Shown here: in pieces, positions 39,063 to 50,569 of the stretch | Position numbering within the stretch: the stretch's first letter is position 1 | How the letters are laid out: every line of letters begins with the position of its first letter | Origin: Halobaculum halobium | Lineage (GTDB): Archaea; Halobacteriota; Halobacteria; Halobacteriales; Haloferacaceae | Length of the DNA stretch: 64,000 nucleotides | Direction: 5' to 3' | Assembly (NCBI RefSeq): GCF_030127145.1 | Contig: NZ_CP126158.1 | Location: 2,666,001 to 2,730,000, forward strand | Made by a program: the position numbers and the translations under genes | Notes under the pieces: generated by a model | Database searches by the model: none | What the model saw: the letters and a program-made list of their open reading frames with translations, nothing else | Told to the model about the DNA's origin: nothing

Positions 39063-41324
39063 GTGGTCCCAGACCCAGGGGCGGACGACGACCCGCCCGT
39101 CGAGGAGCCGGCCGACGACGAACCCGCGCCAGAGCGCGTCACCGAGGGCCCCGTCCCAGACGGTACCTCGGAGCGGACCGGCCTCGACGAGCGCCGTCGC
39201 CGGCTCCTCGGGATCGCGGGTGTGGGGGTGCTCGGCGCCGCTGGAGTCGCCGGCGCGTGGCGCGCCTCGCGCCCGGCCGGAGCGCCGCCGGCCGAGACGC
39301 CGTCTGCGACCCCCACGCCGAACGCGACGGAGCCGGCGACAGAGCCGACCGAGACACCGCCCGAAGCGTCGACCGACGAGGTGCCCGCGTTGGTCCGGCG
39401 GTACGCGCCCGACCTCTACTACGGGCGGTTGGAGAAGTGGTTCCCCACCGATCCGCGCCCCTACGTGATCGAGACGGCGGACGGCCGGGTCGTCGACGGG
39501 TTCACCGCGCTCGACGAGTACACGGCCGAGTTCACAGCGACGGGCGCGCCGCCGGCCCCGACGGTGTTCTACAACGTCGTCGAGGCCGCAGACGGCGTCG
39601 ACGCGATCCAGTACTGGCAGTACTCCGTGTTCGATCAGTTCACCGTCAACTTCCACTGGCACGACTGGGAGCTGTTGCAGGTGTTCGTCGACCGCGAGTC
39701 CGGCCGGCCGTTGCTGTTGTCGGCGAGCGCGCACTCGCGGTCGGTTCCGAACAACGAGTTCCTCGATCCCGGTCTCCCCGATGGGACTCGCCCGGGCGTC
39801 CTCGCGGAGGTGGGTTCTCACTCGAGCGCGAGCGAGGTCAACGGGCGCGTCCCGACCTTCGAGCGACTCGCGGGCGGGAGTTGGAACTCGGACGTGTCGA
39901 ACGACTTCGTCGACGTCGCGTCGGGTGAACTGGCACGGTTCGCCTACGGACTCCCGCGCGACGAGGGGGCGCGGCTCCCGTTCGTCATGCCGGAACTCGA
40001 CGGGCACCGCCTCGACGACCACCCGGACCTCTCGGTCGGCCCGGCGGGGTTCATCGACGCGGCGGTCACCGTGACCGACTGGCGCGGGCTCCCTCGGCCG
40101 CCCGAATCGCTGCCGCTTCGCGTTCCCGGACTCGTTTTCACCCACCCGGAGAGCGCGACCGGGGGGGACGCGACGTACGCGCTCGAACCGATCGAGGTCG
40201 TCAGCGACGCCATCGACGACTTCGTCGGCCCACAGTTGAGTTTCGAGTTCGCGATTCCCGGTTTCGTGGAGGATCAACTCGCGAGCCACATCACGTCGGT
40301 CGGCATCCCTTGGGAGCAGGAGCGGTTCACTGACCCCCTCGCGGACGTCACCGACCCCGCCCACCGGCAGCGCATCGACGGGGAGTCGCCCGCGGGACTA
40401 CGAAACCGCGTCGTCGGACGGGTGCGGCTGCTCCAGACCGGGGCCGAAGGGGCCCTCGACCGCGTGAGCGACGGCGCGCGCGACGCACTCGCGGATTCGA
40501 TCACCGTCTCGTTCCGTCAGCCCCCAGTGGAACTGTGCACGCAGCTCGCGAGCGAGGACCCGGTCGCGTCGGTCACCAGGGCGGGTGCGTTCGGCTACCT
40601 GCACGTCGCGCCCGGCGAACACCGGCTCACCGTGAACGGCCCGGGGATCGCGCCGCTGGCTGTCGGATTCGACCATGACGGCGGACTCCTCCAGGCCGGC
40701 TCGGCGGGCGATCTGACGGTCGTCGCAAGCGAGAACGCCGGCTGGATCCGAGGGGACGGCCGTGACGCCGCCGGAGTCGCGCACGTCCGGGTCGTCGAAG
40801 ACTACGCGGGTGTCGTCTACGACGGCGCCCCCGTGGAGGACGACCGCTTCGCCGTCGCAGTTCACCGCGGTGGCCACTACACGGTCACCGTCGTCGACAG
40901 TGAGGGTCGCCCCGGCGCGTACCGCGTCGCCCCGGCCGACTTCGACGACGCCGGCGAGGCGGTCCGCGAGACCGTCGGGACGGGGAAGGCGAGCCTCGCG
41001 CGGACGCTCCGTGCGGAACTGTCCGCCCTCCTCGATCTGGCGAGCGAGTTCGCACGACAGGACCGCGGCGGCGACGAGGTCGTCGATCGACTCTCGGCCG
41101 CGCTGGAGGACGTCGACGCGGCGACGGCGACCGCCGAGCGCGGCGACGCCCAGTCCGCGAACGACCGGCTGTCGCGTGCGGCGGCGGCGCTGGAGGAGGC
41201 GCTCGACGTGCTGTTCAGCGAGGACCTCGGGGGGTACGACGACTCGTCGGTAGTGGCGCTGTACCCGCGCGTGCAGGAGGCGATAGGCCGGGCGGAACAG
41301 GCGATCCGAACCGAACTCGCCTGA
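39063..41324 (+). CDS. Exported protein with NLP/Vps62-like HWHDWE motif
   Basis: A 753-residue secreted or anchored protein starting at GTG 39063; a TATA-like GGTATTTACC lies about 35 bases upstream. A twin-arginine-like segment at about 44-66 (RRRRLLGIAGVGVLGAAGVA) is followed by a Thr/Pro-rich spacer to about 108. The next domain begins LVRRYAPDLYYGRLEKWFP, continues IQYWQYSVFDQFTVNF and has HWHDWE at residues 198-203. That motif and its setting resemble the GHRHDWE heptapeptide of NPP1/NLP proteins and the HxxDWE of Vps62-like proteins. Beta-rich repeats follow to about 630, then a helical C-terminus. Substrate and function are unknown. Confidence 0.7.
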   Translation: MVPDPGADDDPPVEEPADDEPAPERVTEGPVPDGTSERTGLDERRRRLLGIAGVGVLGAAGVAGAWRASRPAGAPPAETPSATPTPNATEPATEPTETPPEASTDEVPALVRRYAPDLYYGRLEKWFPTDPRPYVIETADGRVVDGFTALDEYTAEFTATGAPPAPTVFYNVVEAADGVDAIQYWQYSVFDQFTVNFHWHDWELLQVFVDRESGRPLLLSASAHSRSVPNNEFLDPGLPDGTRPGVLAEVGSHSSASEVNGRVPTFERLAGGSWNSDVSNDFVDVASGELARFAYGLPRDEGARLPFVMPELDGHRLDDHPDLSVGPAGFIDAAVTVTDWRGLPRPPESLPLRVPGLVFTHPESATGGDATYALEPIEVVSDAIDDFVGPQLSFEFAIPGFVEDQLASHITSVGIPWEQERFTDPLADVTDPAHRQRIDGESPAGLRNRVVGRVRLLQTGAEGALDRVSDGARDALADSITVSFRQPPVELCTQLASEDPVASVTRAGAFGYLHVAPGEHRLTVNGPGIAPLAVGFDHDGGLLQAGSAGDLTVVASENAGWIRGDGRDAAGVAHVRVVEDYAGVVYDGAPVEDDRFAVAVHRGGHYTVTVVDSEGRPGAYRVAPADFDDAGEAVRETVGTGKASLARTLRAELSALLDLASEFARQDRGGDEVVDRLSAALEDVDAATATAERGDAQSANDRLSRAAAALEEALDVLFSEDLGGYDDSSVVALYPRVQEAIGRAEQAIRTELA

Positions 41325-42337: not shown

Positions 42338-42808
42338 TTACGGTTCGACGCGCAGCGTCACTGTCAGCGGTGCGCCCCGCTCCAGCGCGGTCACGAGCCG
42401 TCGGTCGAAGTCGGCGGCGGCCTTGTCGGCGTCGACCATGATCGTCCGCTCGTCGACGTAGTCGCTGGTGCGTCCGACAATGCTCCGGTCGCCCTCGTAC
42501 GATAGGTCCGGGTGGCCGCGTCCCGTCACCGTCTCGGTCGCGTCCGCGGCGCCGAACTCGGCGACGATCGTCGCCTCCCGCGAGCGACACGCCTCGACGA
42601 ACGACCGCGGCACGTCCGCCGGAGTCGTGTCCGCCTCGATCGCGAGGATGCAGTCGCCCGCGGGCGTGAGCCAGTCGTCGCTCGTCACCTCGAAGGTGCT
42701 CGTGTGCTCGGCGCTGACGTGCTCGTGGCCCGACGCGCGGACGGTCACCTCCCGGATCGGACCCGCGGTCGTCGTCGCGTCCGACTCGCTCGACGCCTCG
42801 TCGGTCAT
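42338..42808 (-). CDS. DUF371-family protein
   Basis: A 156-residue cytoplasmic protein. Family-like blocks are VTVRASGHEHVSAEHTSTFE, TSDDWLTPAGDCILAIEADT and TGRGHPDLSYEGDRSIVGRT. DUF371 is widespread in archaea and uncharacterised; the conserved His and Cys positions are suggestive but unproven. It lies between endonuclease III and the DUF368 gene on the same strand, with gaps of 97 and 53 bases. Confidence 0.8.
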   Translation of the reverse strand: MTDEASSESDATTTAGPIREVTVRASGHEHVSAEHTSTFEVTSDDWLTPAGDCILAIEADTTPADVPRSFVEACRSREATIVAEFGAADATETVTGRGHPDLSYEGDRSIVGRTSDYVDERTIMVDADKAAADFDRRLVTALERGAPLTVTLRVEP

Positions 42809-42861: not shown

Positions 42862-43875
42862 TCAGTCCAGGTCGACGCCGCCGGCGAGCCGGTCGAGTCC
42901 GACGACGAGAAGCGCGCCGACCGCGGCCGCGACGACGAACTCGCCGCCGACCGTCGCGGTCCAGGCACCGATCTCCTCGCCGACGCGGACGACGGGCGCC
43001 CTGAGTGCGCCGACGATGAGGCCGATCAGGAACGCGAGCGTCGCCTCGCGCCGCGCCGCGAGCGCCGCCCGAACCGCGTGGGCGACGGTGAGCAGTCCGA
43101 CGACGCCGCCCGCGAGGAACGCGACCACCGGGATCCCGGCCTCGATGGCCGCGGCCATCGGGCCGCCGGTCGCGACCGCCAGCAGCGAATCGACGAACAC
43201 GGACAGCGCCTCGGTCATCCGCTCGTACTGGCCGAGGATGACCAGCAGGAGCGACCCCGAGATGCCGGGGAGGATCATCGCGCTCACCGCGACCGCGCCC
43301 GCGAAGAACGTCGCGAGCGCGGTCTCGCCGAGCGCCGCGGACGCGCGCCCGGAGGCGACGAACGCCAGCGCCGCTCCCGCGACGGCCGCGGCGGCCCGGC
43401 CGGCGGTGTCGACGCGGAACTCGTCTCTGAGCACGACCGCCGACGCGCCGATGAGCCCGAAGAAGAAGCCGTACGTGAGCACGGGGGCCGTCTCCAGCGC
43501 GACGTGTAACACCCGGGTGACGGTGAGGATCGCGGTGGCGATTCCCGCGCCGAGCGCGAGCAGGAACGCCCCGTCGATGTCGGTCCAGACGGCGCGAAGC
43601 TGGTCTCGGTCACCGAGGAGCCCCTCGATCGTGCGGCGCGCGAGCGACGGCGAGGCGGCCGTGACCGCGGCGATGAGGCGGTCGTAGATCCCGGTGATCA
43701 ACGCGATGGTCCCGCCGGAGACGCCGGGGACGGCGTCGGCGGTCCCCATCGCGACCCCGCGGAGGTACGTGCCGATCGGTCCCTCGTCGCGTTCGATCAG
43801 GGTCGCGTCCGCCGAGCCGGTCGCCTCCGAATCGTCCGCCGCGTCGACTGCGTCATCGCCGCTGGAGTCCGTCAT
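42862..43875 (-). CDS. DUF368 (PopT-type) polyprenyl-phosphate translocase
   Basis: An integral membrane protein of 337 residues with 8-9 helices and the two DUF368 inverted motifs, ADAVPGVSGGTIALITGIYD near the N-terminus and SAMILPGISGSLLLVILGQY in the middle. DUF368 proteins were identified in bacteria as undecaprenyl-phosphate translocases (PopT), which return the lipid carrier to the cytoplasmic face. Here the gene starts immediately after the aglB stop with no gap, so a role in recycling dolichol phosphate after N-glycan transfer is a natural inference. The first 28 or so residues are an acidic cytosolic tail. Confidence 0.85.
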   Translation of the reverse strand: MTDSSGDDAVDAADDSEATGSADATLIERDEGPIGTYLRGVAMGTADAVPGVSGGTIALITGIYDRLIAAVTAASPSLARRTIEGLLGDRDQLRAVWTDIDGAFLLALGAGIATAILTVTRVLHVALETAPVLTYGFFFGLIGASAVVLRDEFRVDTAGRAAAAVAGAALAFVASGRASAALGETALATFFAGAVAVSAMILPGISGSLLLVILGQYERMTEALSVFVDSLLAVATGGPMAAAIEAGIPVVAFLAGGVVGLLTVAHAVRAALAARREATLAFLIGLIVGALRAPVVRVGEEIGAWTATVGGEFVVAAAVGALLVVGLDRLAGGVDLD

Positions 43876-46800
43876 CTACGGCGTGACGTGTCGGCGGATC
43901 GGAGCACGGACCGATGGTGCGGCCCCGTCCGTCGCACCCGTTCCCGCGAACGACTCGCCGCTCGGGTCGTCGCTCGTCGAATCGAGCCCGTTCAGCGAGT
44001 CGAACTCCGCGGGCAGCGAGCTCGTGTTCTCGGAGTCGTCGGTCGTGTTGTTCGTCTCCGAGCCGTTCTCCTGGGCGCCTTCGGGCGCACGGAGGACTTC
44101 CTCGGACAGCGTCACCGTCGCGGTCTCGTCGGTGTCGCCGTTGACAGCGCCCTCGCTCACGTTGAACGTCCCTTGGTTGCGGACGATGTACGCCGACTCG
44201 TTGCTCTCGACCTCGCCGGTGACCGTGTACGCGCCCGTCGCGCGGACGCTCACGTTGGTGTAGCCGTTCTCGGGGCCGTACTCGTCGTAGCCGGCCGTCG
44301 AGTAGGGGACGGTGAACTCGAACTCGCCGTCCTCGTTCGCGGTAGTCTGCTGCTCGTAGGTGAACGTCGACGCGTTGCCGCCGGTGCCGCCCTCGGGAAC
44401 TTCCATCTCGACGGTCGCGGTGACCGTCTCGTTGGGGTCGGCGCCGTCACCCTCGACGGTCGCGCCGGGCACCTTCTCGAACGTCTTCACCCACTGCGGC
44501 TGCGTCTGCTGCAGCAGCGACGGGCGCAGCCCCAGCGACTGCGACTCCTGCAGCACCGTCCGTTGGTACTGACTCGAGGCGTACGCCGAGGTATCGGAGG
44601 TGCTCACGAGCCGGTAGTGCTCCAACGCGGGCACGGACTCGCGCGGGAACGCGCCGACGCCGCCGATCTGGGCGGTGCCGTCCTCCTCGACGAACTGCTG
44701 TGCGGCGCTCTCGTTGGCGAACGTCCGCACCGCGGTTGCGTTCTCGCCCTGCGGTAGCACCTTGTAGCTGGTTCCGTCCTCGGCGGAAACGGTGTCGTAG
44801 TCGAACACGATCACCCGGTCGCCGAACAGCGTCTGGACCGCCGGGTCGGCGCGACTGCCGTGGTACATGTACAGCCGCACCATCATGCTCTCGTAGTAGC
44901 GCTGCTTCTTGTCTTGGAAGGCGACACCGTAGCGAGTGCCCTGCTGGGTCTCCTGTGCGCGCAGCGTCGGCTCGTAGTAGTCCGAGGCGTTCGTGTCGTC
45001 GTCGAAGACGACGGGCGCGCCGAACTTCGAGCCGACCGTGACCATCTGCCAGTCGATCATCGTGTACCGCATCTGTTCGGCCTCGCCGTCGTCGTCGATG
45101 TTCGCGAGCACCTCGCTCGCCTCCTCCTCGCTGGGTGCGAGGAGGTAGTTCGCCGCGGAGGTCGCACCCTGCTGGAACGGGTTGGCGTGCGGGATGCGCT
45201 CGCCGCGCGTGGTGATCCAGTGCCCGTAGTCCCACCACGACATCACACCATAGGCACCCTCGGGATAATCGTAGTCGCCGGCGGCGGGCCGCTGGTAGGT
45301 TTCGTAGTAGTCGAGTTCGTCGGCGTTGCCGGCGCCGCCGAGGTTGCCCTCGGCGGGCGTGTTACTGTTCATTTTCTGCAGACTCTCGTCCCAGATAGTC
45401 ACTGCGCCCGGACCGGTGCTGTTGCCGACGCCGACGGCGGTGTTCGTCTTGTCGATGGACACCTGGCCGGTGCTCCCCAGCGACAGCGGGACGACGAGCA
45501 CCGGACCGAGGACGACCAGCACCGTGAGCACCACGGCGATGATCTGGTACGTCTCCACGTCCGGCATCGAGAGGTCCGCCGAGAAGTCGATCCCGATAAC
45601 CGCGAGGATTTCCCGGAGGAAGTAGGCGTTCATTCCCGCGACGGCGACCGCGAGGTAGTAGTTGAAGCGCACCTGCGTGAACGCCGCCGCGGTGATGAAC
45701 GCCGCCCACACGAACACGAACAGGTGTTCGGCGTCATAGCGGACGCGCGCGGCCGCGCCGAACACGAGCAGCGCGACGAGCGCGAGGCCCGCCACCTGCG
45801 GGTTGAGTCCGAGCCCGCTCGCGAGGTCGTTGAAGATCGGCGCTCCGACGAACACGAACAAGACGACGAGCGTCGAGCCGGCGAGGTAGTAGTAGTCGCT
45901 CGTGGTGCCGCGCTTCCACAGCGGCTTGACGAGCATCCACACCGCGGCCGCGAGGGCAGTGATGAACGCGAAGCCGTACTCGGCGAGGACGACGCCGAAG
46001 CCGCCGTAGTACTGGACGAGCCCCGACTGGAGGAACGGCTGGGCCTCGCCGATAGTCCGTGCTGTCGCTGTAGCAGAGAAGCCGACGAACCGGAGGAGGT
46101 TGCTCTCGATCGTGGTGAACGGCGCCGCCTCGACGAAGATAACGAGGAGGACGCCGACCGCGCCGAGCACGCCGACCGTCGCCGCGAACCCGTCGTCGTT
46201 CAGTCGTTCGTCCGCGAACTCGCGGGCGTCAAGCTGACGTGCAAGGAACGCGAGGAAGACGGCGCCCGCGGCGGTCGCGAGCGCGAAGGCGGGCTGGATG
46301 AGGCTCATCGCGGTCGGGGAGAACGTCGCCTCCTCGAACTTAACCAGGGCCATGAGCGCCGCAACCACCATCGAGATAACCGCAACGAACGCGACGTGGT
46401 CCGGGGATCGGTCACCCGCATAGTCAGAGACGGCTTGGAACACGACGTATGCGGCGAAGATACCGAGTAGGAGGACGCCCGGTGGCCACACCCACAGATA
46501 CAGCCCGATCGCGAACCCCCCGAGTGCACTCCAGTACAGAGTGGGCTTCAGTTCGTCCCACTCGCTCGCTTGCACGAGTTCCCAGATGGGGCGGTCCCGC
46601 TGGGCGACTGCGAGCGCGACCATGATCGAGACGACCGCGAACGCCTGAAAGAACGGTTCCACAATGTTGTGGTCGGCGAAGCCGACGAGTCCGCGCCGGA
46701 GGAACGTTCCAGGCAGGAGCATCAGGATGACCGCGCCGAAAAGGCCTGCGAGGCGGCCCCCGAGGCGCTTCCCGATGAGATAGGTGGGGACCGCGATGAG

Positions 46801-47244
46801 CGCCCCGAAGACCGCGGGCGCAACGAGGAGGGTCTTGGCGACGAGTGCCTCGGAGGGGGCCCCGAGGCCGACGATGAGGGCTGCGGTGGCGACCAGTTGG
46901 TCGTAGAGCGTACCGAATTGGCCGGAGTTGGTCCCGAACGGGTAGTACGTCCACGGGTCCCACGGCATCGTGGAGGGCCAGTTCGCGACGGTGTACCGGA
47001 CCTGTCTGAGGTGGTACCACGCGTCGTTACCGTTGAAGTACACCTGCCCGTCGCGGATGAAGTTACTGTAGGACTGAAGGCGGACCCACAGCATGAACGC
47101 GACGATCGCGAGGAGCGTCGGGATATGGTAGAGGTCACCGAGGACATCGGTGGCCGACTTCCCCGCGAAGGAGTAGTCGAGGCCCGGGACGGAGGTGGCG
47201 GAGTTCCCACCGTCCGGGGTCGTGTCGCTATCGCTTCGACTCAT
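43876..47244 (-). CDS. aglB: Dolichyl-phosphooligosaccharide--protein glycotransferase AglB
   Basis: Archaeal STT3-type oligosaccharyltransferase of 1122 residues that moves the lipid-linked glycan onto Asn of S-layer and other exported proteins. The membrane half (about residues 40-620) has 11-13 helices and the acidic motif GNDAWYHLRQVRYTVANWP. The catalytic WWDYG motif is at 670-674. A DW motif region (TMIDWQMVTVGSKFGAPVVF) follows. A long beta-rich C-terminal region ends in an Asn/Ser/Thr-rich stretch. The ATG at 47244 is preferred over an upstream one at 47331 because a TATA-like GCTTATCC (47268-47275) lies about 28 bases before it. Confidence 0.95.
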   Translation of the reverse strand: MSRSDSDTTPDGGNSATSVPGLDYSFAGKSATDVLGDLYHIPTLLAIVAFMLWVRLQSYSNFIRDGQVYFNGNDAWYHLRQVRYTVANWPSTMPWDPWTYYPFGTNSGQFGTLYDQLVATAALIVGLGAPSEALVAKTLLVAPAVFGALIAVPTYLIGKRLGGRLAGLFGAVILMLLPGTFLRRGLVGFADHNIVEPFFQAFAVVSIMVALAVAQRDRPIWELVQASEWDELKPTLYWSALGGFAIGLYLWVWPPGVLLLGIFAAYVVFQAVSDYAGDRSPDHVAFVAVISMVVAALMALVKFEEATFSPTAMSLIQPAFALATAAGAVFLAFLARQLDAREFADERLNDDGFAATVGVLGAVGVLLVIFVEAAPFTTIESNLLRFVGFSATATARTIGEAQPFLQSGLVQYYGGFGVVLAEYGFAFITALAAAVWMLVKPLWKRGTTSDYYYLAGSTLVVLFVFVGAPIFNDLASGLGLNPQVAGLALVALLVFGAAARVRYDAEHLFVFVWAAFITAAAFTQVRFNYYLAVAVAGMNAYFLREILAVIGIDFSADLSMPDVETYQIIAVVLTVLVVLGPVLVVPLSLGSTGQVSIDKTNTAVGVGNSTGPGAVTIWDESLQKMNSNTPAEGNLGGAGNADELDYYETYQRPAAGDYDYPEGAYGVMSWWDYGHWITTRGERIPHANPFQQGATSAANYLLAPSEEEASEVLANIDDDGEAEQMRYTMIDWQMVTVGSKFGAPVVFDDDTNASDYYEPTLRAQETQQGTRYGVAFQDKKQRYYESMMVRLYMYHGSRADPAVQTLFGDRVIVFDYDTVSAEDGTSYKVLPQGENATAVRTFANESAAQQFVEEDGTAQIGGVGAFPRESVPALEHYRLVSTSDTSAYASSQYQRTVLQESQSLGLRPSLLQQTQPQWVKTFEKVPGATVEGDGADPNETVTATVEMEVPEGGTGGNASTFTYEQQTTANEDGEFEFTVPYSTAGYDEYGPENGYTNVSVRATGAYTVTGEVESNESAYIVRNQGTFNVSEGAVNGDTDETATVTLSEEVLRAPEGAQENGSETNNTTDDSENTSSLPAEFDSLNGLDSTSDDPSGESFAGTGATDGAAPSVRAPIRRHVTP

Positions 47245-47351: not shown

Positions 47352-48272
47352 GTGCAAGTCTCCGTCGTCCTCTGCACGTACACGGAGTCGATGTTCGTGG
47401 ATTTTTGCGAGGCGGCGGACAGTATCCTCAACCAGTCCTATGAGGAAGTGCAGTTGGTCATCGTCGTCGACGGCAACCATAACCTGTACGACAGAGTGAT
47501 CGAGGAGTACGGGGATAGGTCCGATGTCGTGACCCACTGCAACGACTGGAACGTCGGTCTTCTAGAGAGTCGGAATACCGGTGCTGAACTCGCCGACGGA
47601 GACGTGGTCGCCTTTATCGACGATGACGCTGTGGCGGATAAGCACTGGGTCGAGGAACTCGTTGGGAGCTACGAGGCGCAAGACGCAGTCGCGGTCGGAG
47701 GGAAGATGACCGCCGATTGGGTTGCGGGGCGCCCCTCCTATCTCCCCGAGGAATTCTTCTGGCTTGTCGGCGTGACTCATCGGGGGTTCGCCGATGGCCC
47801 CGGCCCAGTCCGAAACACATTCGGCTCGAATATCTCCTTCGACCGAGAGGTGTTCCTCCATCTTGGAGGCTTCGACGCAGAAGTCGGGGGCCGCAAGGGC
47901 GACAAGAATCTGCAGGGCGGCGAGACGGAACTGTGTGCGCGCCTTCGCAAAGAGTACGGAATGAGCGTCTGGTACAATCCTAATGCGACGGTCGCACACA
48001 AGGTATATGAATATCGAACTGACATAATCTGGCTGCTCGACCGGGCGTTTTGGCAGGGCTACTCCAAACGCGGGATGCAACAGCTTGTCCCCGACTCGGG
48101 CGGCGAAGAGGGTGAGTTTCTCGGCGACCTGCTGCGAGAGTACACTCCCGAACGCTTGTATCGCTTGTTTCGTGATCCTTCCAGTCCAAAAGTTCAAAAG
48201 TTAGTGCTGTTGCTGGTGCTAACAGGAGCAGTCGGCTGTGGGTACGTGTACGGTATTGCTAAGTGGGGTTGA
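47352..48272 (+). CDS. AglG-like family 2 glycosyltransferase
   Basis: A 306-residue transferase for building the dolichol-linked N-glycan. The GT2 fold begins at once (QVSVVLCTYTESMFVDFCEA), with NTGAELADGDVVAFIDDDAV providing the metal-binding DDD. Further on are GGFDAEVGGRKGDKNLQGGE and ETELCARLRKEYGMSVWYNP, the ED-type region for acceptor handling. A C-terminal hydrophobic helix (KLVLLLVLTGAVGCGYVYGI) anchors it. It resembles AglG, a glucuronosyltransferase of Haloferax, in size and context. GTG 47352 is the only start that gives the full fold. GC content is visibly lower than in aglB. Confidence 0.82.
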   Translation: MQVSVVLCTYTESMFVDFCEAADSILNQSYEEVQLVIVVDGNHNLYDRVIEEYGDRSDVVTHCNDWNVGLLESRNTGAELADGDVVAFIDDDAVADKHWVEELVGSYEAQDAVAVGGKMTADWVAGRPSYLPEEFFWLVGVTHRGFADGPGPVRNTFGSNISFDREVFLHLGGFDAEVGGRKGDKNLQGGETELCARLRKEYGMSVWYNPNATVAHKVYEYRTDIIWLLDRAFWQGYSKRGMQQLVPDSGGEEGEFLGDLLREYTPERLYRLFRDPSSPKVQKLVLLLVLTGAVGCGYVYGIAKWG

Positions 48273-48274
48273 TA

Positions 48275-49465
48275 ATGGAGGGCGAAAATGAATCCGGCGA
48301 CAACTGGACTGGTGGGGACTCCGAAGACATTGGCGACGTAAACCCCCTTCCGGGCGTCTGTGTCGTGACACACCCGCTGAGTCCTGCTGGAGAGAATGCA
48401 ACACGGACTCTATTGAACGTTCTTGCGGCGATTACGACTGTCTCTCTGGTGACCGCTGACCTTCCGGAGAACTCGTCGATCTGGGACGATCACCTTGTTT
48501 TCGAGGTATCTGAGCACGGGGCTGGTCAGTCAAATATCCTCATTGCTGCGTATCGCTTCCTGCGCAATCAGCTCCGGATGGCAGCGCGGATACGCGAGCG
48601 TGATGAAGAAATCGTCTTGTTCTTCGGAGCCACCTCGTATCTTCTCCCTGTCTTGTTCGCAAAGGCGATCGGGAAGACAATTGTTGTCGAACCGCGGGGA
48701 GACGTTCCGCTGACGCTCCGGTTGAACTGGGAACAGCGGATGCCGGCGCAGCTGGCTCGTGTGCTCGCGGGACTCGTCCGGGCGCTCGAGGAGGTGTGTT
48801 ACCGCGCCGCCGACGCAATCGTGACGTACACGCCGTCGATGGCTTCTGAACTGGGATTGACACGCTTCGACGGGAAATTGTACCCAAACGGCGCACGGTA
48901 CGTGGATACCGACGCTTTCGATGTGCGTGTTCCATTCGAGTCGCGGGGGGAAGTCGTCGGGTTTGTCGGTCGGCTGGACGAGGAAAAGAACGTCCGATCG
49001 CTCTTGGCGGCGGCGCAGAATCTACCCGAGTCGACTAATTTCCGGTTCATCGGCGATGGTCCACTATTTGAGGAGCTGGAGACCACAGCGACGACAGACC
49101 GAGTCAGCTTTGCCGGCTGGGTCGACCACAATGAAGTCTCTGCGGAACTGAACGAGATGCGCCTGCTCATCCTTCCGTCTGACCCGACGGAAGGACTCCC
49201 GACGACGATACTGGAATCGCTCGCGTGTGGGACTCCCGTGTACGCGACACCAGTCTCTGGCGTCCCAGACGTGGTCAGAGAGGGGGAGACAGGCTTTCTC
49301 ATGAATGACCCATCACCCGAGGGCATTGCGGCTGATGTCGCCACTATCCTCGACCGGGACGACCTTATCGAGGTGAGCCGGCAGGGGCGAGCAGAAGTCG
49401 TGCGCGACTACGACTTCGAGGCAGCGACCCATCGGTATCGGGATATCTTCGCAGACCTCGCATGA
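48275..49465 (+). CDS. Family 4 glycosyltransferase
   Basis: A 396-residue GT-B fold enzyme. The N-terminal domain starts PLPGVCVVTHPLSPAGENAT; the donor-binding half shows VVGFVGRLDEEKNVRSLLAA, RFIGDGPLFEELETTATTD, and the E-X7-E motif in EGLPTTILESLACGTPVYA. It lies 2 bases after the AglG-like gene on the same strand and shares its lower GC, so the two likely arrived together and add strain-specific sugars. The ATG 48275 is used; a GTG 12 bases upstream is possible. The exact sugar cannot be told. Confidence 0.85.
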   Translation: MEGENESGDNWTGGDSEDIGDVNPLPGVCVVTHPLSPAGENATRTLLNVLAAITTVSLVTADLPENSSIWDDHLVFEVSEHGAGQSNILIAAYRFLRNQLRMAARIRERDEEIVLFFGATSYLLPVLFAKAIGKTIVVEPRGDVPLTLRLNWEQRMPAQLARVLAGLVRALEEVCYRAADAIVTYTPSMASELGLTRFDGKLYPNGARYVDTDAFDVRVPFESRGEVVGFVGRLDEEKNVRSLLAAAQNLPESTNFRFIGDGPLFEELETTATTDRVSFAGWVDHNEVSAELNEMRLLILPSDPTEGLPTTILESLACGTPVYATPVSGVPDVVREGETGFLMNDPSPEGIAADVATILDRDDLIEVSRQGRAEVVRDYDFEAATHRYRDIFADLA

Positions 49466-49561
49466 ACAGAGGCGACTGGCGTGGTGACTACCAGTCTCGC
49501 GACTACGGGCCGCTGTCTGTTCCCGAAACCCCTAACTCACACCCGGAACCACTCCACACAC

Positions 49562-50569
49562 ATGACTGACGACGTCTGCGTACTCCTCCCCACCTACGAC
49601 GAGGCCGCCACCGTCGCAGACGTCGTCACGGAATTCCGCGACCACGGCTTCACTAACATCCTCGTCATCGACGGCGGCTCCACGGACGACACTCGCGAAC
49701 GCGCTCGCGATGCCGGCGCGCGCGTCGAGATCCAATCGGGCTCCGGCAAGGGCCAGGCTATCCGCGAGGCCGTCCGCGAGCACGTCGACGCCGAGTTCGT
49801 CCTCATGGCCGACGCCGACGGCACCTACCGCGCGAGCGACGCCGACGCCATGCTCGAACCGCTCCGAAGCGGCACCGCCGAACACGTCATCGGCGATCGC
49901 TTCGCCGACATGCACGACGACGCGATGACCGGCCTCAACCGCGTCGGCAACACGATTTTCAATAGCCTGTTCTCGCTCATTCACCGCGAGGACTTCGGCG
50001 ATATCCTCTCGGGATACCGCGCCTTCACCGTCGACTCTTTCAAGCGCCTCCGCCTCTCGGCGGACGGCTTCGGTATCGAGACGGAACTGGCCGTCGAGTG
50101 CGCGCGCCACGGCGTCCGCACGACCGTCGTCCCGATCACGTACCTCCCGCGTCCGGACGGCTCGAACACGAACCTCCACCCGGTGCGCGACGGGGGGATC
50201 ATCCTGATGGCGATCTACCGGCAGGCGAAGACCTCGAACCCGCTGTTCTACTTCGGGAGCGCGGGCGTGGCCTCCGGGCTCGCGGGCGGACTCGTCGCCG
50301 CGTACGTCGCCTATGACTGGTTCGCAAACGGGATCTCCCACAACGTCCTCGCGATCGTCGCGGGCGTCGGGGTCATCCTCGGCGTGCAACTGCTCATCTT
50401 CGGCGTGCTCTCGGACCTGCTTGTCACGCTCCACGGCGAGACACTCGACCGAGTCGAGGCGCTCGAACGGGAGATGCCGGCCGGAGCGGACACGAGTAGC
50501 GAGGAAGCCACCGAAAAAGGGGTGACACCTACGAAAGACGAGGGATGTGTGGGCCCCCCCGAGCAATAG
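49562..50569 (+). CDS. aglJ: AglJ-like dolichyl-phosphate hexosyltransferase
   Basis: Family 2 glycosyltransferase of 335 residues that in Haloferax loads the first hexose of the N-linked glycan onto dolichol phosphate. The catalytic domain has CVLLPTYDEAATVADVVTEF, the metal site EFVLMADADGTYRASDADAM and LSGYRAFTVDSFKRLRLSAD. Two C-terminal membrane helices follow (LFYFGSAGVASGLAGGLVAA and LAIVAGVGVILGVQLLIFGV). GC returns to the genome level here, unlike the two genes before it, which marks AglJ as the conserved core and the previous pair as the variable part. The ATG at 49562 gives the family start MTDDVCVLLPTY. Confidence 0.88.
   Translation: MTDDVCVLLPTYDEAATVADVVTEFRDHGFTNILVIDGGSTDDTRERARDAGARVEIQSGSGKGQAIREAVREHVDAEFVLMADADGTYRASDADAMLEPLRSGTAEHVIGDRFADMHDDAMTGLNRVGNTIFNSLFSLIHREDFGDILSGYRAFTVDSFKRLRLSADGFGIETELAVECARHGVRTTVVPITYLPRPDGSNTNLHPVRDGGIILMAIYRQAKTSNPLFYFGSAGVASGLAGGLVAAYVAYDWFANGISHNVLAIVAGVGVILGVQLLIFGVLSDLLVTLHGETLDRVEALEREMPAGADTSSEEATEKGVTPTKDEGCVGPPEQ

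Follow-up and report, generated by a model that had tools for sequence, protein, structure and literature searches.

A DUF368 gene retained beside aglB in Halobacteria as a candidate for dolichol phosphate recycling

In most genera of Halobacteria a gene of the DUF368 family lies next to aglB, the gene of the N-glycosylation oligosaccharyltransferase, and we consider it probable that the two form a unit, the DUF368 protein recycling what AglB leaves behind as a by-product. The pair was studied from a window of 64,000 nucleotides of Halobaculum halobium (contig NZ_CP126158.1, positions 2,666,001 to 2,730,000), to which coordinates without a locus prefix refer. Adjacency of DUF368 and aglB does not prove that their products share a substrate; the recycling interpretation is likely to be right for Halobacteria and is too broad for archaea as a whole.

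The aglB locus and the DUF368 protein

On the minus strand, aglB runs from an ATG at 47244 to a TAG stop at 43876-43878, and the ATG of the DUF368 gene abuts this stop. The initial annotation had placed the DUF368 start at the base right after the aglB stop, and the sequence confirms it. The features of the locus are as follows:

42338-42808, minus strand: DUF371 gene, downstream of DUF368 (PF04027)
42862-43875, minus strand: candidate DUF368/VCA0040-like polyprenyl-phosphate translocase, 337 aa (PF04018, E 1e-63)
43873-43878, minus strand: junction of the aglB TAG and the DUF368 ATG, zero bases between, by direct reading of the sequence
43876-47244, minus strand: aglB, oligosaccharyltransferase, 1122 aa (TIGR04154, 877 bits; PF02516, PF22627, PF18079)
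47352-48272, plus strand: AglG-type glucuronosyltransferase, divergent from aglB (NF041394, 487 bits, above cut-off)
48263-49465, plus strand: family 4 glycosyltransferase (PF13692, PF00534)
49553-50569, plus strand: AglJ, the first glycosyltransferase onto the dolichol phosphate carrier (TIGR04182, 436 bits, above cut-off)

The AglB score lies well above the TIGR04154 cut-off of 450 bits, and the STT3, AglB_core and AglB_L1 domains are all present. The genome has a single DUF368 gene and a single full AglB. Upstream of aglB, an AglG-type gene is found most often (22 of 45 linked loci, the cluster counted being a broad GT2 group), while DUF371 directly follows DUF368 in only 5 of the 45 and is a lineage-specific neighbour outside the conserved unit. 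Elsewhere in the window, positions 39063-41324 of the plus strand encode a 753-aa protein that matches no Pfam or NCBIfam family.

The DUF368 protein belongs to PF04018, with 216 bits against a gathering cut-off of 26 and a match over domain positions 1-227 of 246. It also has the conserved residues that bacterial and other archaeal members share, which form 20 invariant columns among 77 aligned sequences, two bacterial ones included. Its closest named relative is a Halobaculum saliterrae protein with 83% identity. The label "PopT-type", given in the initial annotation, was not borne out: the protein reaches 87.4 bits with the NCBIfam PopT model (NF052563) and 193.3 bits with the VCA0040-type model (NF052564), each with an equivalog cut-off of 400 bits, and since it falls below the cut-offs for both named transporters, PopT is the wrong name for it.

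A PGxSG motif occurs twice, at residues 50-54 and 203-207, and is invariant. The internal repeat around the two copies has 11 identities in 36 positions (shuffle p 3e-4, for a hand-picked register), the pattern expected of a two-fold carrier. A confident AlphaFold2 model of the protein (pLDDT 89.7, pTM 0.83) is all helical. A Foldseek search of solved structures with this model returned nothing under E 0.001, with rmsd near 20 Å, and a sequence search for solved structures gave no convincing chain. Elsewhere in the family, the DUF368 protein of one other genome (G219, f13 g61; L060:3117-4187) gives two overlapping profile matches, 1-194 and 129-230, as if part of it were duplicated. Fusion of DUF368 to AglB was considered and rejected; the long frames seen in L074, L100 and L131 arise by extension from stop to stop, and DUF368 occupies just their end.

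Conservation and history of the pair

The initial annotation called for a survey of aglB neighbourhoods, and the survey revealed a strong and ancestral link across Halobacteria. PF04018 is present in 144 of 145 Halobacteria genomes, and AglB scores above its cut-off in 144 of 145. The lone genome without DUF368 (G021) carries DedA, AglB and BacA. Linkage was scored in the 140 genomes for which both gene positions were available. DUF368 is the next co-directional gene after aglB in 95 of these, covering 39 of 58 genera and 9 of 10 families, and lies 1.8-3.2 kb downstream in the same direction in another 5; however, it is unlinked to aglB in the remaining 40, so that the physical linkage claimed from the one locus holds for most genomes and not for all. 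At three of the near loci the intervening genes include an AglM-like UDP-glucose dehydrogenase, a glycosylation-type gene.

Chance is not a plausible source of this contact, because we estimate the probability that a randomly placed gene falls on the same strand within 1 kb downstream, in a genome of about 3.4 Mb, to be of the order of 1e-4, and the arrangement recurs in 95 of the 140 scorable genomes. The two genes stay adjacent although the flanks on either side vary: across 45 loci with direct linkage, 26 kinds of gene lie beyond DUF368 and 20 kinds precede aglB. At the level of genera (n = 55), DUF368 is near aglB in 40, and GlpC, a neighbour common to several families, in 16. Because the outer flanks vary and GlpC is near aglB in far fewer genera, we regard aglB and DUF368 as a retained unit. 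The gap between them ranges from -4 to 188 bp in the 45 loci and is 6 bp or less in 23, a spacing that makes the pair a candidate single transcript; we infer that co-transcription matters. The distances of AglB and DUF368 correlate (Spearman 0.47), which fits common inheritance and is no evidence of interaction.

In the protein tree the halobacterial DUF368 sequences form one clade, with linked copies on most early branches, and six changes of linked state suffice for the 94 sequences; the linkage is ancestral. A well-supported clade of 36 contains unlinked copies only, mostly from two families (at least two), and is nested within sequences of the family to which Halobaculum halobium itself belongs (examples are L108, L110, L113, L131, L140 and L154). 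Judged from this placement, it is likely a transferred DUF368 lineage. Its members sit at unrelated sites, beside a MutS-like, FMN oxidoreductase or peptidase gene. In several genomes with a transferred copy only, the aglB flank keeps the cdc6-like, glpC, glpB and glpA genes without DUF368. In one genome with a transferred copy elsewhere, a decayed DUF368 with a stop is still found between aglB and the cdc6-like gene (L170:7190-7549, minus strand), and this remnant is most similar to the intact linked DUF368 of L091, a member of the same genus. These flanks and the remnant therefore indicate that, in these lineages, the linked copy disappeared where another was able to serve. Since genomes holding a second copy could lose the linked one, the function can apparently be provided from another locus, and a deletion and complementation design is therefore realistic. 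A different arrangement is seen in genus g3 (probably Haloferax), where DUF368 retains the downstream neighbours of its linked relatives and aglB is elsewhere; most of this genus is among the 40 genomes with the genes apart.

Outside Halobacteria the association was not recovered. In a phylum sample of 247 genomes, about 202 of them from outside Halobacteria, DUF368 was present in 78, of which 34 are non-halobacterial (about 17% of those sampled). STT3 is present in all 34; however, it adjoins DUF368 in none of them. The nearest cases, STT3 at 12-15 kb from DUF368, come from four genomes of one family, and several non-halobacterial DUF368 genes adjoin a nucleotide-sugar epimerase. M. jannaschii, M. 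acetivorans and S. acidocaldarius have STT3 and lack DUF368. DUF368 does not co-occur with AglB across archaea as a general archaeal N-glycosylation gene would. The proposal that it performs the missing recycling step of archaeal N-glycosylation is thus supported, in Halobacteria, by linkage and by the published translocation activity of the family, and "archaeal" is too wide a term for it.

Carrier recycling and its alternatives

The haloarchaeal N-glycan is assembled on dolichol phosphate and not on the pyrophosphate (PMC8674786, PMC4335974), and AglB would therefore leave dolichol phosphate outside the cell. The bacterial members of DUF368 recycle C55-P (PMC9876793; family function also in PMC12826051 and PMC12893004), bacterial mutants pile up free carrier on the outer surface (PMC9876793, PMC12826051), and a DUF368 homologue of H. 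volcanii at least partly rescues a V. cholerae mutant (PMC9876793). By analogy with these proteins, the substrate of DUF368 in Halobaculum halobium would be dolichol phosphate and the direction of transport inward. In the cycle that we propose, AglJ, AglG and other transferases would assemble the glycan on dolichol phosphate at the inner leaflet, and a separate flippase would move the charged carrier outward. AglB would then hand the glycan to Asn, so that dolichol phosphate stays behind on the outer leaflet, and DUF368, as an all-helical membrane protein with a PGxSG internal repeat, would bring it back to the inner leaflet.

The general idea is not new, since the authors of PMC9876793 noted the enrichment of DUF368 in Halobacteria and its possible bearing on dolichol phosphate. 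No paper naming DUF368 together with aglB was found in the literature searched, and the available portions of the haloarchaeal pathway papers searched do not describe a return of the spent carrier. With a near-universal gene next to aglB in most genera and a homologue in a tractable species, this recycling step becomes directly testable.

The strongest alternative, to which we give almost an even chance, is that DUF368 serves the general dolichol phosphate pool and owes its place near aglB only to AglB being the largest consumer or to an inherited gene order. The transport step is common to both explanations, and the difference is how dedicated the pair is. A general pool would also supply exopolysaccharide, archaellum, S-layer and DolP-mannose synthesis and take in carrier made de novo outside. 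It would suit a gene that is near-universal while its linkage is not, and whose transferred copies sit beside such unrelated genes. Other users of the carrier are indeed described: AglS uses DolP-mannose, in another haloarchaeal DolP pathway (PMC4335974), and an exopolysaccharide glycosyltransferase is linked to dolichol phosphate mannose synthases (PMC9943897). However, pure inheritance leaves unexplained the persistence of the pair through replacement of both outer flanks, and the frequency of gaps of zero to six bases.

DedA proteins, found in 145 of 145 Halobacteria genomes, raise a second alternative, namely that DedA is the main dolichol phosphate translocase and that DUF368 transports a different anionic lipid or works only under alkaline or high-sodium stress. 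In V. cholerae the DUF368 phenotype depends on alkalinity and sodium and DedA shares the role (PMC9876793), and the lone genome without DUF368 has both DedA and AglB. Given this ubiquity, DUF368 need not be the only route, and DedA is uninformative as a discriminating partner. We nevertheless judge this explanation unlikely: DedA subfamilies are not alike, a polyprenyl-phosphate flippase role being attributed to only part of them (PMC10127716), and in a bacterium the Haloferax DUF368 can partly stand in for a C55-P translocase (PMC9876793).

That DUF368 is instead the forward flippase for AglB, moving the glycan-charged carrier outward, would fit its position and a forward step only tentatively assigned to AglR and Agl15 (PMC4335974), but is very improbable, as polysaccharide flippase-like genes (PF01943, MurJ-like; cluster c49) lie near aglB in 16 of 55 genera and bacterial DUF368 mutants build up free outer carrier, the opposite of a forward defect.

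Beside the proposed AglB-DUF368 recycling unit, a second gene pair was observed. Of 59 Halobacteria, 31 have BacA/UppP and 35 have a second, divergent protein of the STT3 type (STT3-b); both occur in 29 genomes, BacA alone in 2, STT3-b alone in 6 and neither in 22 (Fisher p 8e-9, uncorrected for relatedness). Seven genera vary in these genes: g2, g3, g22 and g32 are fully concordant, and g21, g25 and g37 have one genome each with STT3-b alone. The two genes lie within 1.5 kb of each other in 8 of 29 pairs and within 50 kb in 19 of 29. Loci with the pair include L182:7935-12548 (the own genome, contig C1, outside the window), L188, L190 and L201; the order in L188 and L190 is GlmU-like, GlmS-like, BacA, STT3-b, the family scan having covered L188 only. 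In the own genome, five archaellin-like genes, of which three were scanned, accompany BacA and the second STT3 (L182:1329-9470), and because of this location archaellins may be a substrate of the second STT3.

Hbt. salinarum reportedly builds a second N-glycan on a pyrophosphate carrier (PMC8674786). We tentatively suggest, as a reading that falls somewhat short of an even chance, that Halobacteria have two separate carrier cycles, AglB with a DUF368 translocase and the putative STT3-b with the BacA/UppP pyrophosphatase. In the second cycle the STT3-type transferase would presumably release dolichol pyrophosphate, with BacA/UppP as its pyrophosphatase partner. Two cycles, each specific to one oligosaccharyltransferase, would explain both gene pairs, and if they exist, the recycling partner would predict which carrier an archaeal oligosaccharyltransferase uses.

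Comparison with known systems

Like the agl clusters of Hbt. salinarum and Hfx. volcanii, the window combines aglB with transferases of the AglG and AglJ types. As published (PMC4335974), the Hbt. salinarum cluster, VNG1048G-VNG1068G, stops at aglB, and a DUF368 neighbour does not figure in the pathway described. The activity that we propose is also the one proposed in bacteria for the DedA/UptA polyprenyl-phosphate flippases (PMC12826051, PMC12893004, PMC10127716); unlike DUF368, these belong to another Pfam family, PF09335, and are present in all Halobacteria examined. With PopT, of the S. aureus SAOUHSC_00846 type, the protein has the Pfam family and the inferred activity in common; however, it scores only 87 bits against the PopT model, and the context of PopT is the bacterial cell wall. 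The closest likeness is to VCA0040 of Vibrio cholerae, through PF04018 over the whole domain and through the VCA0040-type model, the nearest curated one at 193 bits. It differs from VCA0040 in falling below the 400-bit cut-off of that model, in its expected substrate, dolichol phosphate, and in that the halobacterial DUF368 gene is, in most Halobacteria, fixed beside an oligosaccharyltransferase gene.
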